DNA from: Pseudaminobacter soli (ex Zhang et al. 2022)
GTDB taxonomy: Bacteria; Pseudomonadota; Alphaproteobacteria; Rhizobiales; Rhizobiaceae
Length of the DNA stretch: 64,000 nucleotides
Assembly: GCF_014595955.1 (NCBI RefSeq)
Contig: NZ_JABVCF010000001.1
Coordinates: 62,001-126,000 of the forward strand
Reading direction: 5' to 3'
Positions within the stretch are counted from its first letter, which is position 1; every line of letters begins with the position of its first letter. A program made the translations under genes and the position numbers. Below the pieces are notes generated by a model that ran no database searches, had not been told where the DNA came from, and saw nothing but the letters and a program-made list of their open reading frames with translations. This document shows, piece after piece, positions 22,388 through 47,714 of the stretch.

Positions 22388-22415
22388 GGAAAGCATAAGC
22401 CTGGGAGGAGGCGGA

Positions 22416-23495
22416 ATGCTGGAACTTCGGAATGTCACCAAGACGGTCGCCGGCGCGGACCACATCCGCGACGTGTCGCTCACCCTCGAGCACGGCTCAC
22501 TCAACGTACTCCTCGGGCCGACCCTTTCCGGCAAAACCAGCCTCATGCGCCTGATGGCAGGCCTCGATGCTCCTACCTCCGGATCAATCTGGTTCGACGG
22601 TCGGGACGTGACCGGCGTGCCGGTCCAGAAGCGCAATGTCGCGATGGTCTACCAGCAGTTCATCAACTATCCGGCGATGACGGTCTACGAGAACATCGCC
22701 TCGCCGCTCCGAGTCGCAGGTGCGGACGCCGCTCGCACCGACCGGGAAGTCAAACGCGCGGCCGAACTGCTGAGGCTCATCCCCTATCTCGACCGTATGC
22801 CGCTCAGCCTCTCCGGCGGCCAGCAGCAACGCACGGCACTCGCGCGAGCCATCTCCAAGAACGCCGGCCTGGTCCTTCTCGACGAACCGCTCGCAAATCT
22901 CGATTACAAGCTGCGCGAGGAACTCAGGGCCGAACTGCCGAAGATTTTCGCCGAAACGGGGGCGATCTTCGTCTATGCGACGACGGAGCCGCAGGAGGCG
23001 CTTCTCTTGGGCGGCAATACGGCGACCCTCTCGGAGGGGCGGGTGACGCAGTTCGGCCCGACCATCGAGGTGTTCCGCCGGCCGAAGGATCTCGTCACCG
23101 CCAGAACCTTTGCCGATCCGCCATTGAATACCGTCATCCTTCGCAAGCAGGGTGATAGCTTCCAGTTGGACGGCGGAGCGTTGCCGGTTCCTGCCGGGAT
23201 GAAGGCCATTCCCGAAGGAACATATGCGATCGGATTCCAGCCTCATCATCTACGGGCGACACGCCCGAACGCCGACGCGATCGTCCTTCCAGCGAAGGTC
23301 CTTGTCACCGAAATCACCGGTTCGGAAAGCTTCGTCCACGTCCAGTTCGCCGACGTGCGCTGGGTGATGCTGGCATCCGGCATTCACAGCTACCAACCGG
23401 AAGAGATGATCGAGGTGTTCATCGATCCGCGCCATCTCATGGTCTTCGACCACGAGGGCAGGGCGGTCCAGCCTGCACCAAAGGCGGCTGCGTGA
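22416..23495 (+). CDS. glpS: Glycerol ABC importer ATPase GlpS
   Basis: One of two different ATPases of the rhizobial glycerol importer GlpSTPQUV. It is 359 residues. Walker A is GPTLSGKTS (residues 34-42), the signature LSGGQQQR (132-139) and Walker B LVLLDEPLANLD. The switch-histidine position reads ATTEPQEA, with Thr190 where VTHD is usual, so its own catalytic site lacks the H-loop histidine. A C-terminal MalK-like regulatory domain follows. It probably dimerises with GlpT. ATG 22416 follows GGGAGGAGGC. Confidence 0.93.
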   Translation: MLELRNVTKTVAGADHIRDVSLTLEHGSLNVLLGPTLSGKTSLMRLMAGLDAPTSGSIWFDGRDVTGVPVQKRNVAMVYQQFINYPAMTVYENIASPLRVAGADAARTDREVKRAAELLRLIPYLDRMPLSLSGGQQQRTALARAISKNAGLVLLDEPLANLDYKLREELRAELPKIFAETGAIFVYATTEPQEALLLGGNTATLSEGRVTQFGPTIEVFRRPKDLVTARTFADPPLNTVILRKQGDSFQLDGGALPVPAGMKAIPEGTYAIGFQPHHLRATRPNADAIVLPAKVLVTEITGSESFVHVQFADVRWVMLASGIHSYQPEEMIEVFIDPRHLMVFDHEGRAVQPAPKAAA

Positions 23496-23508
23496 GAGGG
23501 AGGACGGC

Positions 23509-24576
23509 ATGGCGCGCATCGATCTCGACCATATTCGCCACGCCTACGGCCCCAATCCAAAGGCACCGTCGGATTTTGCCCTGAAACAGGTCAACCATTC
23601 GTTCAAGGACGGGGGCGCCTATGCGCTCCTGGGTCCATCCGGATGCGGCAAGACGACCTTGCTCAACATCATATCAGGGTTGCTCCATCCCTCACACGGG
23701 CGCCTGCTCTTCGACGGCCACGATGTAACGGACCTGTCGACCCAGGAGCGCAACATTGCGCAGGTGTTCCAGTTCCCGGTCGTCTACGATACCATGACGG
23801 TCTACGACAATCTTGCCTTCCCGCTGCGGAACCGGGGCGTGCCGGAAGCGGAAGTGGACGGCAGGGTGCGGGAGACCCTCGCCATGCTGGGACTCTCCGA
23901 GCGAGCCGGCTCGCGTGCGCGCCGCCTGACGGCCGACGACAAGCAGAAGATATCGCTCGGCCGCGGGCTCGTGCGCTCCGACGTCAATGCAATCCTCTTT
24001 GACGAACCGCTGACGGTGATCGACCCGCACCTGAAATGGGTGCTGCGCTCGCAGTTGAAGCAGCTGCATCGGCGGTTCGGCTACACCATGATCTATGTGA
24101 CGCACGACCAGACGGAGGCGCTCACCTTCGCCGAGACGGTGGTGGTCATGTACGACGGCGAGATCGTGCAGATCGGAACCCCGGACGAGTTGTTCGAACG
24201 GCCCAGCCATACCTTTGTCGGTTATTTCATCGGTTCGCCGGGCATGAATGTGATGCCGGTCGAACTCGAAGGCGCGCGGGCACGTCTCGGATCGCAGATC
24301 ATCGAATTGCCCTTTCCTCCTGCGAACGCTTCCGGGCGGATAGAGCTCGGCATCCGGCCGGAATATGTGCGCATCGGCCGAAGCGGGCTTCCGGTCCGCG
24401 TCACCAAGGTGGAGGATGTCGGGCGGCACAAGATCGTGCGCGCCAGCCTGGAAGGGCGCGAGATCGCGGCAATCCTGGGGGAGGACGAGACCCTCCCGGC
24501 GGATGCGCGCGTCAGCTTCGATCCGGTCGGCATCAATCTCTACCAGGACTCCTGGCGCATAGAGACGGGGGTCTGA
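23509..24576 (+). CDS. glpT: Glycerol ABC importer ATPase GlpT
   Basis: Second ATPase of the glycerol importer, 355 residues; not the unrelated enterobacterial GlpT antiporter. Walker A GPSGCGKTT (residues 42-50), Walker B AILFDEPLTVID and the H-loop YVTHDQTEA are intact. The LSGGQ signature is replaced by LTADDKQK (140-147), so it cannot supply a normal signature to its partner's site. From memory this replacement is also present in other rhizobial GlpT proteins. It starts 13 nt after glpS, following GAGGGAGGAC. Confidence 0.93.
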   Translation: MARIDLDHIRHAYGPNPKAPSDFALKQVNHSFKDGGAYALLGPSGCGKTTLLNIISGLLHPSHGRLLFDGHDVTDLSTQERNIAQVFQFPVVYDTMTVYDNLAFPLRNRGVPEAEVDGRVRETLAMLGLSERAGSRARRLTADDKQKISLGRGLVRSDVNAILFDEPLTVIDPHLKWVLRSQLKQLHRRFGYTMIYVTHDQTEALTFAETVVVMYDGEIVQIGTPDELFERPSHTFVGYFIGSPGMNVMPVELEGARARLGSQIIELPFPPANASGRIELGIRPEYVRIGRSGLPVRVTKVEDVGRHKIVRASLEGREIAAILGEDETLPADARVSFDPVGINLYQDSWRIETGV

Positions 24577-24579
24577 ACC

Positions 24580-25446
24580 ATGGACAAGACCTGGAACAAC
24601 AAGGCCTGGTTCATGGTCCTGCCGGTGCTGCTGCTGGTCGCCTTCTCGGCGGTGATCCCGCTGATGACGGTGGTCAACTACTCCGTGCAGGACACCTTCG
24701 GCAACAACCAGTTCTTCTGGGCGGGCACGGAGTGGTTCGAGGAGATGCTCCACTCCGACCGCTTCTGGCAGGCCATGGCGCGGAGTCTGATCTTCTCGTT
24801 CGTGATCCTGGCGATCGAGATCCCGCTCGGCATCGTGATCGCCCTGAACATGCCTCGATCAGGCTGGGGCGTTCCGGTGTGCCTCGTGCTGATGGCCCTG
24901 CCGCTGCTCATCCCGTGGAACGTCGTCGGCACGATCTGGCAGGTGTTCGGCCGCGTCGATATCGGCCTTCTCGGCTACGTCATGAACGCGCTCGGCGTCG
25001 ACTACAACTACGTCAACGATCCGCTCGATGCCTGGGTAACAGTGATCGTCATGGATGTATGGCACTGGACGAGCCTCGTCGTCCTGCTCTGCTATGCCGG
25101 CCTGGTCTCCATCCCGGATGCCTACTACCAAGCCGCGAAGATCGACGGCGCCTCCCGCTGGTCGATCTTCCGCCATATCCAGCTTCCGAAGATCAGGCGG
25201 GTGCTGCTGATCGCGGTGCTGTTGCGCTTCATGGACTCCTTCATGATCTACACGGAACCGTTCGTGGTCACCGGTGGGGGGCCGGGCAATTCGACGACCT
25301 TCCTGTCGATCGATCTCGTCAAGATGGCGGTCGGCCAGTTCGACCTCGGCCCCGCCGCGGCGATGTCGATCATCTACTTCCTGATCATCCTTCTGTTCTC
25401 ATGGGTGTTCTACACCGTCATGACCAACTCGGGCTCGGAGCGCTGA
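24580..25446 (+). CDS. glpP: Glycerol ABC transporter permease GlpP
   Basis: Inner-membrane permease of 288 residues with about six spans; the first is WFMVLPVLLLVAFSAVIPLM. The ATPase-docking EAA loop reads YQAAKIDGASRWSIFRHIQL. It belongs to the carbohydrate (MalF/UgpA-like) permease class. It starts 3 nt after the glpT stop and ends 1 nt before glpQ. In Rhizobium leguminosarum the glpSTPQUV products have been shown to import glycerol; the order here is the same. Confidence 0.93.
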   Translation: MDKTWNNKAWFMVLPVLLLVAFSAVIPLMTVVNYSVQDTFGNNQFFWAGTEWFEEMLHSDRFWQAMARSLIFSFVILAIEIPLGIVIALNMPRSGWGVPVCLVLMALPLLIPWNVVGTIWQVFGRVDIGLLGYVMNALGVDYNYVNDPLDAWVTVIVMDVWHWTSLVVLLCYAGLVSIPDAYYQAAKIDGASRWSIFRHIQLPKIRRVLLIAVLLRFMDSFMIYTEPFVVTGGGPGNSTTFLSIDLVKMAVGQFDLGPAAAMSIIYFLIILLFSWVFYTVMTNSGSER

Positions 25447-25447
25447 G

Positions 25448-26362
25448 ATGGCGGACGCGAACGTTACGTCTCCCCGAGCCGGCAGCCTCCCTGCGCCGGG
25501 GCCGGCGGTTACCAAGGCAGGCTCCGGCGACGTCGCCCGGGCAATGCGCCGTCGCGGAGATCAATCCCGCTTCTGGTGGCTGATCCCGGCGTTCTACATC
25601 GCCTTCTTGATCCTGCCGATCTACTGGCTGGTCAACATGAGCTTCAAGACCAACCAGGAGATTCTCGGTACGCTTTCGCTTTGGCCGCGCGATCCGACCA
25701 TTCACAACTACATGGTGATCTTCACCGACCCGTCCTGGTACAAGGGTTACATCAATTCGATCATCTATGTCGTTCTGAATACTGTGATCTCCATTGCCGT
25801 GGCACTTCCGGCGGCGTACGCCTTCTCGCGCTACCGCTTCCTTGGCGACAAGCACCTCTTCTTCTGGCTTCTGACCAACCGAATGGCCCCTCCGGCGGTG
25901 TTCGCGCTGCCCTTCTTCCAGCTCTACTCGGCATTCGGCCTCATCGACACGCATATTGCGGTCGCGCTCGCGCACTGCCTGTTCAACGTGCCGCTGGCGG
26001 TCTGGATTCTCGAGGGCTTCATGTCCGGCGTGCCCAAGGAGATCGACGAAACCGCCTATATCGACGGCTATTCGTTTCCGCGCTTCTTCACGAAGATCTT
26101 CATGCCGCTGATCGCGTCGGGCATCGGCGTCGCTGCATTCTTCTGCTTCATGTTCTCGTGGGTGGAGCTTTTGATCGCCCGCACGCTGACCACCACGAAC
26201 GCCAAGCCGATTTCGGCGATCATGACGCGCACGGTTTCAGCCTCCGGGCTCGATTGGGGCGTGCTGGCGGCCGCCGGGGTGCTCACCATCATCCCTGGCG
26301 CGCTCGTGATCTGGTTCGTGCGCAACTACATCGCCAGGGGCTTTGCCCTGGGGAGGGTGTGA
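25448..26362 (+). CDS. glpQ: Glycerol ABC transporter permease GlpQ
   Basis: Second permease, 304 residues, MalG-like. A cytoplasmic N-terminus of about 45 residues precedes the first span (FWWLIPAFYIAFLILPIYWL). The EAA loop is IDETAYIDGYSFPRFFTKIF. It overlaps the next gene by one ATGA junction. It should form the channel with GlpP. This GlpQ is not the phosphodiesterase that bears the same name in enterobacteria. Confidence 0.93.
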   Translation: MADANVTSPRAGSLPAPGPAVTKAGSGDVARAMRRRGDQSRFWWLIPAFYIAFLILPIYWLVNMSFKTNQEILGTLSLWPRDPTIHNYMVIFTDPSWYKGYINSIIYVVLNTVISIAVALPAAYAFSRYRFLGDKHLFFWLLTNRMAPPAVFALPFFQLYSAFGLIDTHIAVALAHCLFNVPLAVWILEGFMSGVPKEIDETAYIDGYSFPRFFTKIFMPLIASGIGVAAFFCFMFSWVELLIARTLTTTNAKPISAIMTRTVSASGLDWGVLAAAGVLTIIPGALVIWFVRNYIARGFALGRV

Positions 26363-26769
26363 TGACCGCAACCCGCCGTTGGCAGATTCCGCTGATCGTG
26401 GTGCTGATCGCCTATCTCGCGACGGCCGCTCTGCTCGCCAGTGTGCTGCCGCTCAAGAACGGCGCCATCGACTGGTTCGCGCCGCTCAGGGCGGGAGGCT
26501 GGATGGCCTGGTCATTCCCGACCGCGCTGTTCTTCCTCACCATCGCCCTGCTGCTCGCGCTCATGGCGGTATGGGAATACGCCTCGCCCGGGGGAAATCC
26601 CCGCGTCGGCATATTGCGCTTCGAGACGACGCGCGGTGACCGTCTTTTCATTTCGCTGCTCGGCAGCGCCTTCATCCATCTCGCTTGGCTGGGCCTGGTC
26701 GGGCCCAACCTGTGGTGGGCACTCGGCCTCTCGGCGGTCTACGCGATCGGCGTGTTCCGCTATGTCTAG
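26362..26769 (+). CDS. glpU: Small membrane subunit of glycerol importer (DUF2160, GlpU)
   Basis: A 135-residue protein with about four predicted membrane helices (IPLIVVLIAYLATAALLA; FPTALFFLTIALLLALMAVW; LISLLGSAFIHLAWLGLV-like segment; the C-terminal WWALGLSAVYAIGVF). It matches the DUF2160 family that sits between permease and binding protein in rhizobial glp operons. ATG 26362 overlaps the glpQ stop by 3 nt, so it is translationally coupled. Its exact job in glycerol uptake is not established. Confidence 0.85.
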   Translation: MTATRRWQIPLIVVLIAYLATAALLASVLPLKNGAIDWFAPLRAGGWMAWSFPTALFFLTIALLLALMAVWEYASPGGNPRVGILRFETTRGDRLFISLLGSAFIHLAWLGLVGPNLWWALGLSAVYAIGVFRYV

Positions 26770-26846
26770 GGAGAGGAAACTAACGTTCCGGCCTCCATCG
26801 GCTGGATCGGCGATGTCTGGAACTTGATCAACAGGGAGGACTACGC

Positions 26847-28568
<1,722 letters not shown>

Positions 28569-31224: not shown

Positions 31225-31806
31225 ATGGACGACCGCGTGCGCGTGATATCTTCCGAGGTTCTCTCCGACGCATGGGGCGTCCTCAAGAGCACGGTCTTCG
31301 ATTACCGCCGGCTGGACGGCAACTGGGAGCGACAGACTCGCGAGACCTACGATCGCGGCAATGGCGCTGCGGTTCTGCCCTACGATCCGGCCCGTAACAC
31401 GGTGCTGCTTGTGAGGCAGTTCCGATTCCCCGCCTACCTCCAGGGCCATCCGGAGCCGCTGCTGGAGGCATGCGCCGGTCTGCTCGACGAGGACGATCCG
31501 GAGACCTGTGCCCGCCGCGAGGCGCAGGAGGAACTCGGCTATCAACTGCACGACCTCGAACTGATCTGCGTGCCGTTCATGACCCCCGGCAGCGTCACCG
31601 AGCGCCTTGCCTGTTTCGTCGCGCGCTACTCGCAGGAGGACCGGGTTTCCGCAGGCGGCGGCCATATCCACGAAGGAGAAGACATAGAGGTGGTCGAGAT
31701 GACTCTCGAGGAGGCCTACCGTGCGACCCGCGACGGCCGGATCAGCGATGCCAAGACGATCGTCCTGATCCAGCATCTCGTGATCGATCAGGCGCGAGGC
31801 GAATAG
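31225..31806 (+). CDS. nudK: NudK-type GDP-mannose pyrophosphatase (Nudix)
   Basis: Nudix hydrolase of 193 residues that should cleave GDP-mannose or a similar nucleotide sugar. ATG 31225 is preferred to 31189 because GGAG lies 6 nt before it and the length then fits NudK (about 190). The Nudix box EACAGLLDEDDPETCARREA then QEELGY has the NudK-specific spacing. Downstream MTPGSVTERLACFVARY, GGGHIHEGEDIEVVEM and GRISDAKTIVLIQHL match that subfamily. It stands alone, with a short inverted repeat (GCCCGA-ATCA-TCGGGC) overlapping its stop codon. Confidence 0.88.
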   Translation: MDDRVRVISSEVLSDAWGVLKSTVFDYRRLDGNWERQTRETYDRGNGAAVLPYDPARNTVLLVRQFRFPAYLQGHPEPLLEACAGLLDEDDPETCARREAQEELGYQLHDLELICVPFMTPGSVTERLACFVARYSQEDRVSAGGGHIHEGEDIEVVEMTLEEAYRATRDGRISDAKTIVLIQHLVIDQARGE

Positions 31807-31972
31807 CCCGAATCATCGGGCATTGATCTCAGTGCCTTCGCGAGCGATTGCCGGGGCACCGCATACCCACAGCACCCTGTACAATCGTCCCATTCAGCGA
31901 CTGCAACCCACGATTTAGACTAAAGGCGGAGGACTTTTCCTTGGAATCCGGCTTTTTAGGAAAACTGGGGTT

Positions 31973-32000
31973 TTGAAATCCCCGCCGCAGGCCCCATATA
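31973..32000 (+). promoter_or_regulatory. Promoter of the alpha-r14-like small RNA
   Basis: TTGAAA (31973-31978), a 16-bp spacer and CATATA (31995-32000), resembling rhizobial vegetative promoters. Transcription would begin near 32006, a few bases before the first sRNA stem. Confidence 0.55.
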
Positions 32001-32005
32001 GGGTT

Positions 32006-32106
32006 TATCATCCGGCGGTTCTCCTCCCATTTTCGCCGGATGGTGTTCCCCTCTGGAGGTTTTGACCTTCAATCTTGCCGGGCCGCATTCGAGCCCGGCT
32101 TTTTTT
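32006..32106 (+). ncRNA. Candidate alpha-r14 family anti-Shine-Dalgarno sRNA
   Basis: About 100 nt. The first hairpin is TCCGGCG (32011-32017) pairing with CGCCGGA (32034-32040) and presents the unpaired loop motif CTCCTCCC (32021-32028), complementary to ribosome-binding sites. A second small stem is GGAGGT-TTTG-ACCTTC (32055-32070). The third is a classical terminator, GCCGGGC-N9-GCCCGGC (32077-32099) followed by seven T. A plausible promoter sits directly upstream. This matches my recollection of the alpha-r14 sRNAs of Rhizobiales (for example NfeR1 of Sinorhizobium), whose loops carry CUCCUCCC. Such RNAs repress translation of ABC-transporter mRNAs among others. The 5' end is estimated. 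Confidence 0.7.
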
Positions 32107-47384: not shown

Positions 47385-47465
47385 GGGTGAATTTGCGTGC
47401 TTGACACTTGCGTCTAGATTTGGCGCACTGGCTCGCAATTGAGGGGACCGGCGAAAGAAAAGAAA

Positions 47466-47714
47466 ATGGCGGAACGATCGCAAAATCTTCAGGACTTATT
47501 CCTGAACTCGGTTCGCAAGAGCAAGAATCCGCTCACAATATTCCTGATCAACGGCGTGAAACTGACCGGTGTCGTAACGTCATTCGACAATTTCTGCGTG
47601 CTCCTGCGGCGCGACGGGCACTCGCAGCTTGTTTACAAGCATGCGATCTCCACGATCATGCCGAGCCAGCCGGTTCAGATGTTCGACGCCGAAGAGAATT
47701 CGCAAGGCTCCTAA
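47466..47714 (+). CDS. hfq: RNA chaperone Hfq
   Basis: An 82-residue Sm-like protein forming hexamers that pair small RNAs with target mRNAs. ATG 47466 ([14 protein letters not shown]) is preferred over an upstream extension at 47439. Sm1 and Sm2 motifs are plain: the proximal-face region [19 protein letters not shown], the [13 protein letters not shown] strand and the [10 protein letters not shown] box. The C-terminal tail is short. In this window it could serve the candidate alpha-r14-like RNA. It is cotranscribed with hflX, which starts at the very next base after its stop. Confidence 0.98.

Follow-up and report, generated by a model that had tools for sequence, protein, structure and literature searches.

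A very probable AbcR (alpha-r15) family small RNA gene away from lsrB in Pseudaminobacter soli, with an apparent stress-type promoter

Introduction

Small RNAs (sRNAs) of the AbcR family in soil bacteria turn down nutrient importers by covering ribosome-binding sites. In S. meliloti, AbcR1 and AbcR2 lie in tandem beside lsrB, the former being LsrB-dependent through the box GCAT-N3-TG-N3-T and the latter RpoH1-dependent through CTTGAA-N16-CCTATAT. Both carry two anti-Shine-Dalgarno (anti-SD) motifs, aSD1 and aSD2, whose action was demonstrated by mutation and compensation (PMC8844928), and the AbcR motifs of Brucella are M1, CUCCCA, and M2, GUUCCC (PMC5461406). According to a survey of Mesorhizobium huakuii, AbcR1/2 were not found in the strain surveyed. 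A second family with anti-SD loops, NfeR1 (alpha-r14), has three identical aSD motifs.

Here we describe a very probable sRNA gene in a 64,000-nucleotide stretch of the P. soli genome assembly GCF_014595955.1 (contig NZ_JABVCF010000001.1, positions 62,001 to 126,000), referred to below as the window, whose numbering is used throughout. A preliminary description, made from the sequence alone, had read the element as an alpha-r14 (NfeR1-like) sRNA that could directly repress a glycerol importer in the same window.

Identity and predicted structure of the small RNA

The Rfam scan of the whole 64-kb window revealed a single above-cut-off match at the element, the full-length ar15/AbcR model RF02345 at 32007-32103 (61.7 bits, cut-off 40, E 3.7e-10), while the alpha-r14/NfeR1 model RF02344 reached 16.8 bits and remained below its cut-off of 58.8, an outcome that the preliminary description itself had named as refuting its reading. 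With ar15 above and ar14 below the respective cut-offs, the element is assigned to the alpha-r15 family and is very probably an AbcR small regulatory RNA. The family given previously was thus mistaken; the kind of molecule had been recognized correctly, namely a trans-acting sRNA with an anti-Shine-Dalgarno function, belonging to an alphaproteobacterial family.

That the element is nevertheless an sRNA of the alpha-r14/NfeR1 type is scarcely credible. Its loop CUCCUCCC is the same sort of anti-SD sequence as that of NfeR1, which also has importer targets, and an ar14 alignment to it exists below the threshold, but it falls to a different covariance model, it has a single CUCCUCCC against the three identical motifs of NfeR1, and six genuine ar14 copies scoring 60.4-93.9 bits are located on other contigs of the same genome. 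The ar14/NfeR1 identity was rejected on this comparison of covariance models. The six ar14/NfeR1 copies above the Rfam cut-off lie at G000:C48:286130-286514 and in four other places, two of them in tandem, and together with two ar15 copies they bring the anti-SD sRNA genes of this genome to at least eight.

The predicted fold of 32007-32106 comprises three hairpins with a minimum free energy (MFE) of -43.8 kcal/mol, compared with a mean of -27.7 for shuffled sequences (z -4.8; 0 of 200 shuffles as good). The features of the element, all on the + strand, are as follows.

32007-32106, +, ar15/AbcR-family sRNA gene, about 100 nt (RF02345, 61.7 bits; MFE -43.8, z -4.8)
32007-32018 with 32033-32044, +, hairpin SL1, 12 pairs and a 14-nt loop (predicted fold)
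32021-32028, +, aSD1, CTCCTCCC, in the SL1 loop; identical over 8 nt to aSD1 of S. meliloti AbcR1/2 (PMC8844928)
32046-32053, +, aSD2, TTCCCCTC, single-stranded in the spacer between SL1 and SL2; identical over 8 nt to aSD2 of AbcR1/2 (PMC8844928)
32054-32060 with 32065-32071, +, hairpin SL2, 7 pairs and a UUUG loop (predicted fold)
32077-32106, +, intrinsic terminator, GCCGGGC/GCCCGGC followed by seven T (sequence and predicted fold)

Several elements of the structure described earlier were recovered, namely the unpaired CTCCTCCC loop, with a predicted probability of 0.97 that the 8-nt motif is unpaired (0.98 for aSD2), the small second stem, and the terminator, with its stem at 32077-32083 and 32093-32099 and seven T at 32100-32106, although a generic terminator scan with a loop limit of 8 made no call at 32077-32106. 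The first stem had been given as 7 bp, which is too short by comparison with the 12 pairs of SL1, and the second anti-SD motif at 32046-32053 had been overlooked. Regarding the pairing motifs of AbcR, as defined in PMC8844928, both are exact in the window copy (aSD1 CUCCUCCC and aSD2 UUCCCCUC), and its 8-nt seeds contain Brucella M1 and M2. Their predicted layout is that of AbcR, with aSD1 in the loop of the 5' hairpin and aSD2 between SL1 and SL2, both modeled as single-stranded, and an AbcR-type intrinsic terminator with a U tail is present. Taken alone, the 8-mer CTCCTCCC occurs 3 times in the window and is no rarer there than chance predicts (3.5 occurrences).

Genomic locus and sibling copy

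The window copy is located 200 nt downstream of a NUDIX gene and has a small ORF on its other side; farther upstream are glpK and the genes of the glp importer, and a BA14K-like gene lies in between on the opposite strand. This NUDIX-glpK neighborhood is shared only with G001, a genome of the same genus. There, the sRNA gene is 1.7 kb downstream of NUDIX, and the gene preceding it has a GDSL-like match slightly below the Pfam cut-off. In another genome of the genus, G003, the copy of the window type adjoins not glp but another ABC importer operon, which encodes a solute-binding protein, an ATPase, and a permease.

As is characteristic of AbcR, the genome has more than one copy: the second ar15, at C3:133753-133867 (42.9 bits), adjoins a gene of the LysR family, next to which there is a pyridine-nucleotide oxidoreductase gene. 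We infer that this LysR gene is lsrB, since the setting resembles that of AbcR1/2 in S. meliloti. Homologs of the LysR gene adjoin ar15 in most of the relatives examined. No lsrB homolog was detected in the 64-kb window at E <= 1e-10. Copies without an lsrB homolog within about 10 kb are also found at G017:C17, G017:C20 (L038), and G029:C1, the first two in a genome with six ar15 matches, and all three have a perfect LsrB box, so that LsrB control is not necessarily lost when a copy is separated from lsrB.

Conservation among relatives

In a survey of 61 genomes, consisting of this genome (G000) and 60 relatives, ar15 was matched at E <= 0.001 in at least 34, at least 31 of them belonging to the same family, and at least 24 have a match above the cut-off; some weak matches are lost to the stricter filters of this survey. 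Of the 52 ar15 matches, 38 were aligned (the 14 omitted being mostly weak or extra copies of one genome). In this alignment, GTTCCCCTCT, which contains aSD2, is invariant, and CCTCCCA, the core of aSD1, is at least 90% conserved, while the letters of the SL1 stem vary. The loop is therefore conserved in close relatives, a property on which the preliminary description had made its own reading depend, although under the ar15 identity. The second copy of G020, which is outside the 38-row alignment, has no aSD1. RNAalifold did not recover SL1 from the alignment, in which its stem is badly aligned, and for this reason no covariation is claimed from it.

The exact pattern of the window-type SL1 loop with its inner stem also matches Mesorhizobium ephedrae 6GN-30, now Kumtagia ephedrae, and Mesorhizobium sp. 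LHD-90. Within the genus, the window-type copy is present in three of four genomes (G000, G001, and G003) and was not found in G002 (85% complete), which has the lsrB-linked type only. A tree of the sRNAs places the window type outside the lsrB-linked group (support of that group 97/97); having few supported branches and bootstrap values that have not settled, it is used for this placement only. The patchy presence within the genus could be expected if the window copy were a duplicated ar15 gene that has fallen silent, but this is very improbable given that the structure, both seeds, and the terminator of the window copy are all intact, and that one SL1 pair has changed on both sides, from the alignment by eye, being T-A in G000 and C-G in G001 and G003.

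Putative promoter and possible transcription control

Upstream of the sRNA gene, the following promoter-like elements are present.

31972-31978, +, -35-like TTTGAAA (contains TTGAAA), sigma-32-like; together with the -10 element, 13 of 14 consensus positions
31992-31999, +, -10-like CCCCATAT, identical in the G001 ortholog and GCCCATAA in the G003 ortholog

The arrangement TTGAAA-N16-CATATA noted previously does exist (31973-31978 and 31995-32000), although a generic sigma-70 scan did not call it as a promoter. The consensus for sigma-32 is CTTGAAA-N12..15-CCCCATNT, and compared with this general consensus in the form CTTGAAA-N13-CCCCATNT, the window site agrees at 13 of 14 informative positions. 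It is the only site with this score in 464 kb of the genome, both strands included, and none of 1000 random 76-bp stretches of the genome reaches 12. Regarding its conservation, the scores of the orthologs are 10/14 (G001) and 8/14 (G003), the promoter being poorly conserved, and a score of 11 is found upstream of only two of ten Cpn10/HSP20 genes in this genome, with a background of 15/1000 for that length. Against the published RpoH1 consensus of S. meliloti, which has N16, the site matches 11 of 13 positions with a spacer of 15, one short, a level equaled by 10 sites in 464 kb. The genome carries a pair of rpoH-like genes, one above and one below the model cut-off.

The exact LsrB box GCAT-N3-TG-N3-T was not detected in 31800-32010, and the best match for the window copy is 5/7 (shuffle p 0.65), while the lsrB-linked ar15 of this genome has a box of 6/7; a match of 6/7 is not rare, being present in 2-18% of shuffled stretches. 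The G001 ortholog of the window copy has a 6/7 match at an unusual place and without GCAT. A comparison of 41 ar15 copies revealed a box of at least 6/7 in 31, none of which reaches a sigma-32 score of 12/14, and among the ten copies without such a box four reach at least 12, namely the window copy (13), the second copies of G014 (14) and G006 (12), and G031:C1 (12); the 41 are not all ar15 copies, a motif filter having dropped the second copy of G032, the first of G012, and that of G015, and several weak matches having been omitted. This division resembles that between AbcR1 (LsrB) and AbcR2 (RpoH1) as described for S. meliloti, and at the level of sequence it suggests that the promoter split of the pair extends beyond Sinorhizobium. 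The copies in G014 (L010 1355), G006 (L009 1796), and G031 (L015 1558), with sigma-32-like scores of 12-14/14 and no LsrB box, are either second in a tandem or not linked to lsrB.

With regard to known systems, S. meliloti AbcR2 has the same two 8-nt motifs as the window copy and likewise lacks an LsrB box, and its RpoH1-type promoter may have a counterpart in the sigma-32-like one of the window copy. AbcR2 lies in tandem with AbcR1 beside lsrB, whereas the window copy lies between the NUDIX gene and the small ORF. The LsrB/VtlR-activated siblings of S. meliloti, Agrobacterium, and Brucella also share the seeds but are activated through GCAT-N3-TG-N3-T, which the window copy lacks. Judged from these promoter sequences, the chances that the window copy is under RpoH control are about even. 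It is also possible, although we consider it rather unlikely, that the window copy is redundant with the lsrB-linked one and is transcribed by the housekeeping sigma factor: both seeds are shared between the two copies, TTGAAA-N16-CATATA resembles a sigma-70 promoter and could also be read by the housekeeping factor, and AbcR siblings are redundant for Brucella virulence. This is countered by the missing LsrB box of the window copy and by the sigma-32-like match being far rarer here (one site in 464 kb) than sigma-70-like matches of this quality (399 sites).

Regarding plasmids, ar15 was matched at E <= 0.001 in 209 of the 72,556 records of a plasmid collection, and 140 of the 209 are predicted to be conjugative. 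The top match by coverage and identity lies on a plasmid from Mesorhizobium (88% over 100 query bases). Matches resembling ar15 occur in the rhizobial plasmid loci L104-L119. The Mesorhizobium plasmid copies (e.g., that of pMspAR07c) have a CGGCGG...CCGCCG stem similar to that of the window copy, but aSD1 is TTCCTCCC in the four Mesorhizobium copies listed, and the sigma-32-like promoter never exceeds 9/14 among the five plasmid copies listed, L105, one of six, having been removed by the motif filter.

Candidate targets and the Hfq chaperone

The window also encodes a candidate partner of the sRNA.

47439-47714, +, hfq, RNA chaperone (NCBIfam TIGR02383, 105 bits, cut-off 61.7; PF17209 at G000:C1:109487-109678)

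With hfq in the same window, the sRNA is plausibly linked to Hfq. Complementarity to the seeds was ranked in the leaders of 405 genes, called by a simple script based on codon composition in the window and 20 stretches of contig 1 (464 kb of 6.1 Mb); the ranking is biased toward strong Shine-Dalgarno (SD) sequences because start codons were chosen partly by SD strength. The 60 best seed-complementary genes, ranked with accessibility, include at least eight matches to families of solute-binding proteins, counted over the 25 families listed of 82, compared with none in 60 random other genes across all families, in which ABC transporters are represented by two permease matches and one ATPase match (Fisher p 0.006, or 0.013 if two matches represent one protein). 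This enrichment of predicted seed complementarity at solute-binding-protein genes fits AbcR, but it is partly an effect of SD strength, since the latter correlates with aSD1 energy (0.60). The hfq gene itself, at 47466-47714, has a leader among the 60 best, which by its sequence may allow feedback of the sRNA on its chaperone.

The glycerol importer as a possible target

Candidate pairing sites are present before three genes of the importer upstream, for which we adopt the presumed names glpS/T/P/Q/V, in part those of the earlier reading.

22402-22410, +, TGGGAGGAG before glpS, candidate site, 9 nt against the SL1 loop (rank 5, tied, of 405 by aSD1 hybrid energy)
23498-23504, +, GGGAGGA before glpT, candidate site, 7 nt (rank 12 of 405 by aSD1 hybrid energy)
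26834-26840, +, GGGAGGA before glpV, candidate site, 7 nt (rank 16 of 405 by aSD1 hybrid energy)

Among the importer genes at 22416-28568, two resemble ATPases and two permeases in NCBIfam, with scores below the curated cut-offs. No NCBIfam model matches the 573-aa protein encoded at 26847-28568, which we regard as the solute-binding protein GlpV because of its position.

The loop had been regarded as a perfect antisense to several ribosome sites of the window; this applies to glpS, with 9 nt, but at glpT and glpV the complementarity extends over 7 nt. Repression of the glycerol importer is possible from the complementarity of its leaders, but the corrected ranks, leader conservation, and neighborhood counts provide no specific support for it. 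It is improbable that the sRNA is a dedicated repressor of this importer linked to it as a neighbor. The hybrid-energy ranks speak for such a role, three of six genes (five importer genes and glpK) being in the top 16 (p 0.0009, with the cut chosen after the ranks were seen), as do the presence of glp genes in the accessibility-corrected top 50 (p 0.027) and the end of glpV 3.4 kb before the sRNA. However, the ranks of glpS, glpT, and glpV fall to 23, 15, and 50 of 405 with target accessibility and to 17, 65, and 56 after correction for SD strength. In a comparison of this genome with the 20 best relatives having a glpV match, GGGAGG precedes glpV in 19 of 21 genomes, including three of the four in which a stricter-filter search detected no ar15, and the G003 copy lies beside another ABC operon. 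S. meliloti AbcR1/2 moreover remain expressed on glycerol, in line with the model of the authors.

Neighborhood counts also argue against a dedicated role, an ABC ATPase being located within 4 kb of 5 of 21 lsrB-distant copies, the corresponding background being 21% at randomly chosen positions of these loci and 16% in contig 1 of this genome. The figure excludes L127 (G017:C42, lsrB-linked) and L129 (G019:C8, lsrB 5.6 kb away), with which it becomes 6 of 23, includes as plasmid copies the ten best-scoring of the 209 records, and misses L111, where ABC solute-binding and permease genes without an ATPase lie within 4 kb. ABC importer genes lie within 4 kb of the copies of the Mesorhizobium plasmids L110, L111, and L112, which are three of the eight annotated plasmid copies with 10-kb flanks; by ATPase count, the proximity of plasmid copies to ABC importer genes is not above background.

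A dedicated glp regulator is not supported, as leader ranking, SD correction, leader conservation, and neighborhood counts together allow for a possible target and nothing more. From the ranks, the conservation of the glpV leader, the ATPase background, and the expression of AbcR1/2 on glycerol it follows that glp is plausible among many targets and that nearness is not evidence; the importer may, tentatively, be one target among many.

Proposed mechanism and meaning

The window element, which belongs to a Mesorhizobium-like member of the Kumtagia group, probably represents a chromosomal AbcR copy away from lsrB that would be transcribed with a stress sigma factor, bound by Hfq, and active in blocking ribosome sites of importers. 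An RpoH-type factor would transcribe the 100-nt RNA from the promoter at 31972-31999, Hfq would bind it, and aSD1 in the SL1 loop and aSD2 in the SL1-SL2 spacer would pair with the ribosome-binding sites of importer mRNAs, mostly those of solute-binding-protein genes, whereupon translation may be blocked or decay of the mRNAs triggered.

The element seems to be a further copy of an established family, with its distance from the usual neighbor gene and its apparent stress-type promoter as the only odd features. Since ar15 copies have already been published from plasmids and second chromosomes (PMC3712013, legend of a supplementary figure), its contribution is modest; mildly new, as far as the sequence indicates, would be an lsrB-distant AbcR copy with a probable stress promoter in a genome keeping an LsrB-type copy elsewhere. 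No title on the ar15 locus of the window was found in the open-access literature searched, from which a paper could have escaped.

Regarding the genus, a doubtful but possible scenario is that the AbcR pair has been split, with the LsrB copy beside lsrB and a plasmid-like paralog elsewhere on the chromosome under its own RpoH promoter, so that the logic of two inputs is kept and stress lowers uptake. If so, the redox (LsrB) and stress (RpoH) inputs would have outlasted the loss of the tandem locus, and stress would reduce nutrient uptake, perhaps including that of the glycerol importer next door. Since seeds are shared between the window copy and its lsrB-linked sibling, while neighborhood and promoter are not, the two copies form a natural experiment on whether the promoter is what chiefly distinguishes sibling sRNAs.
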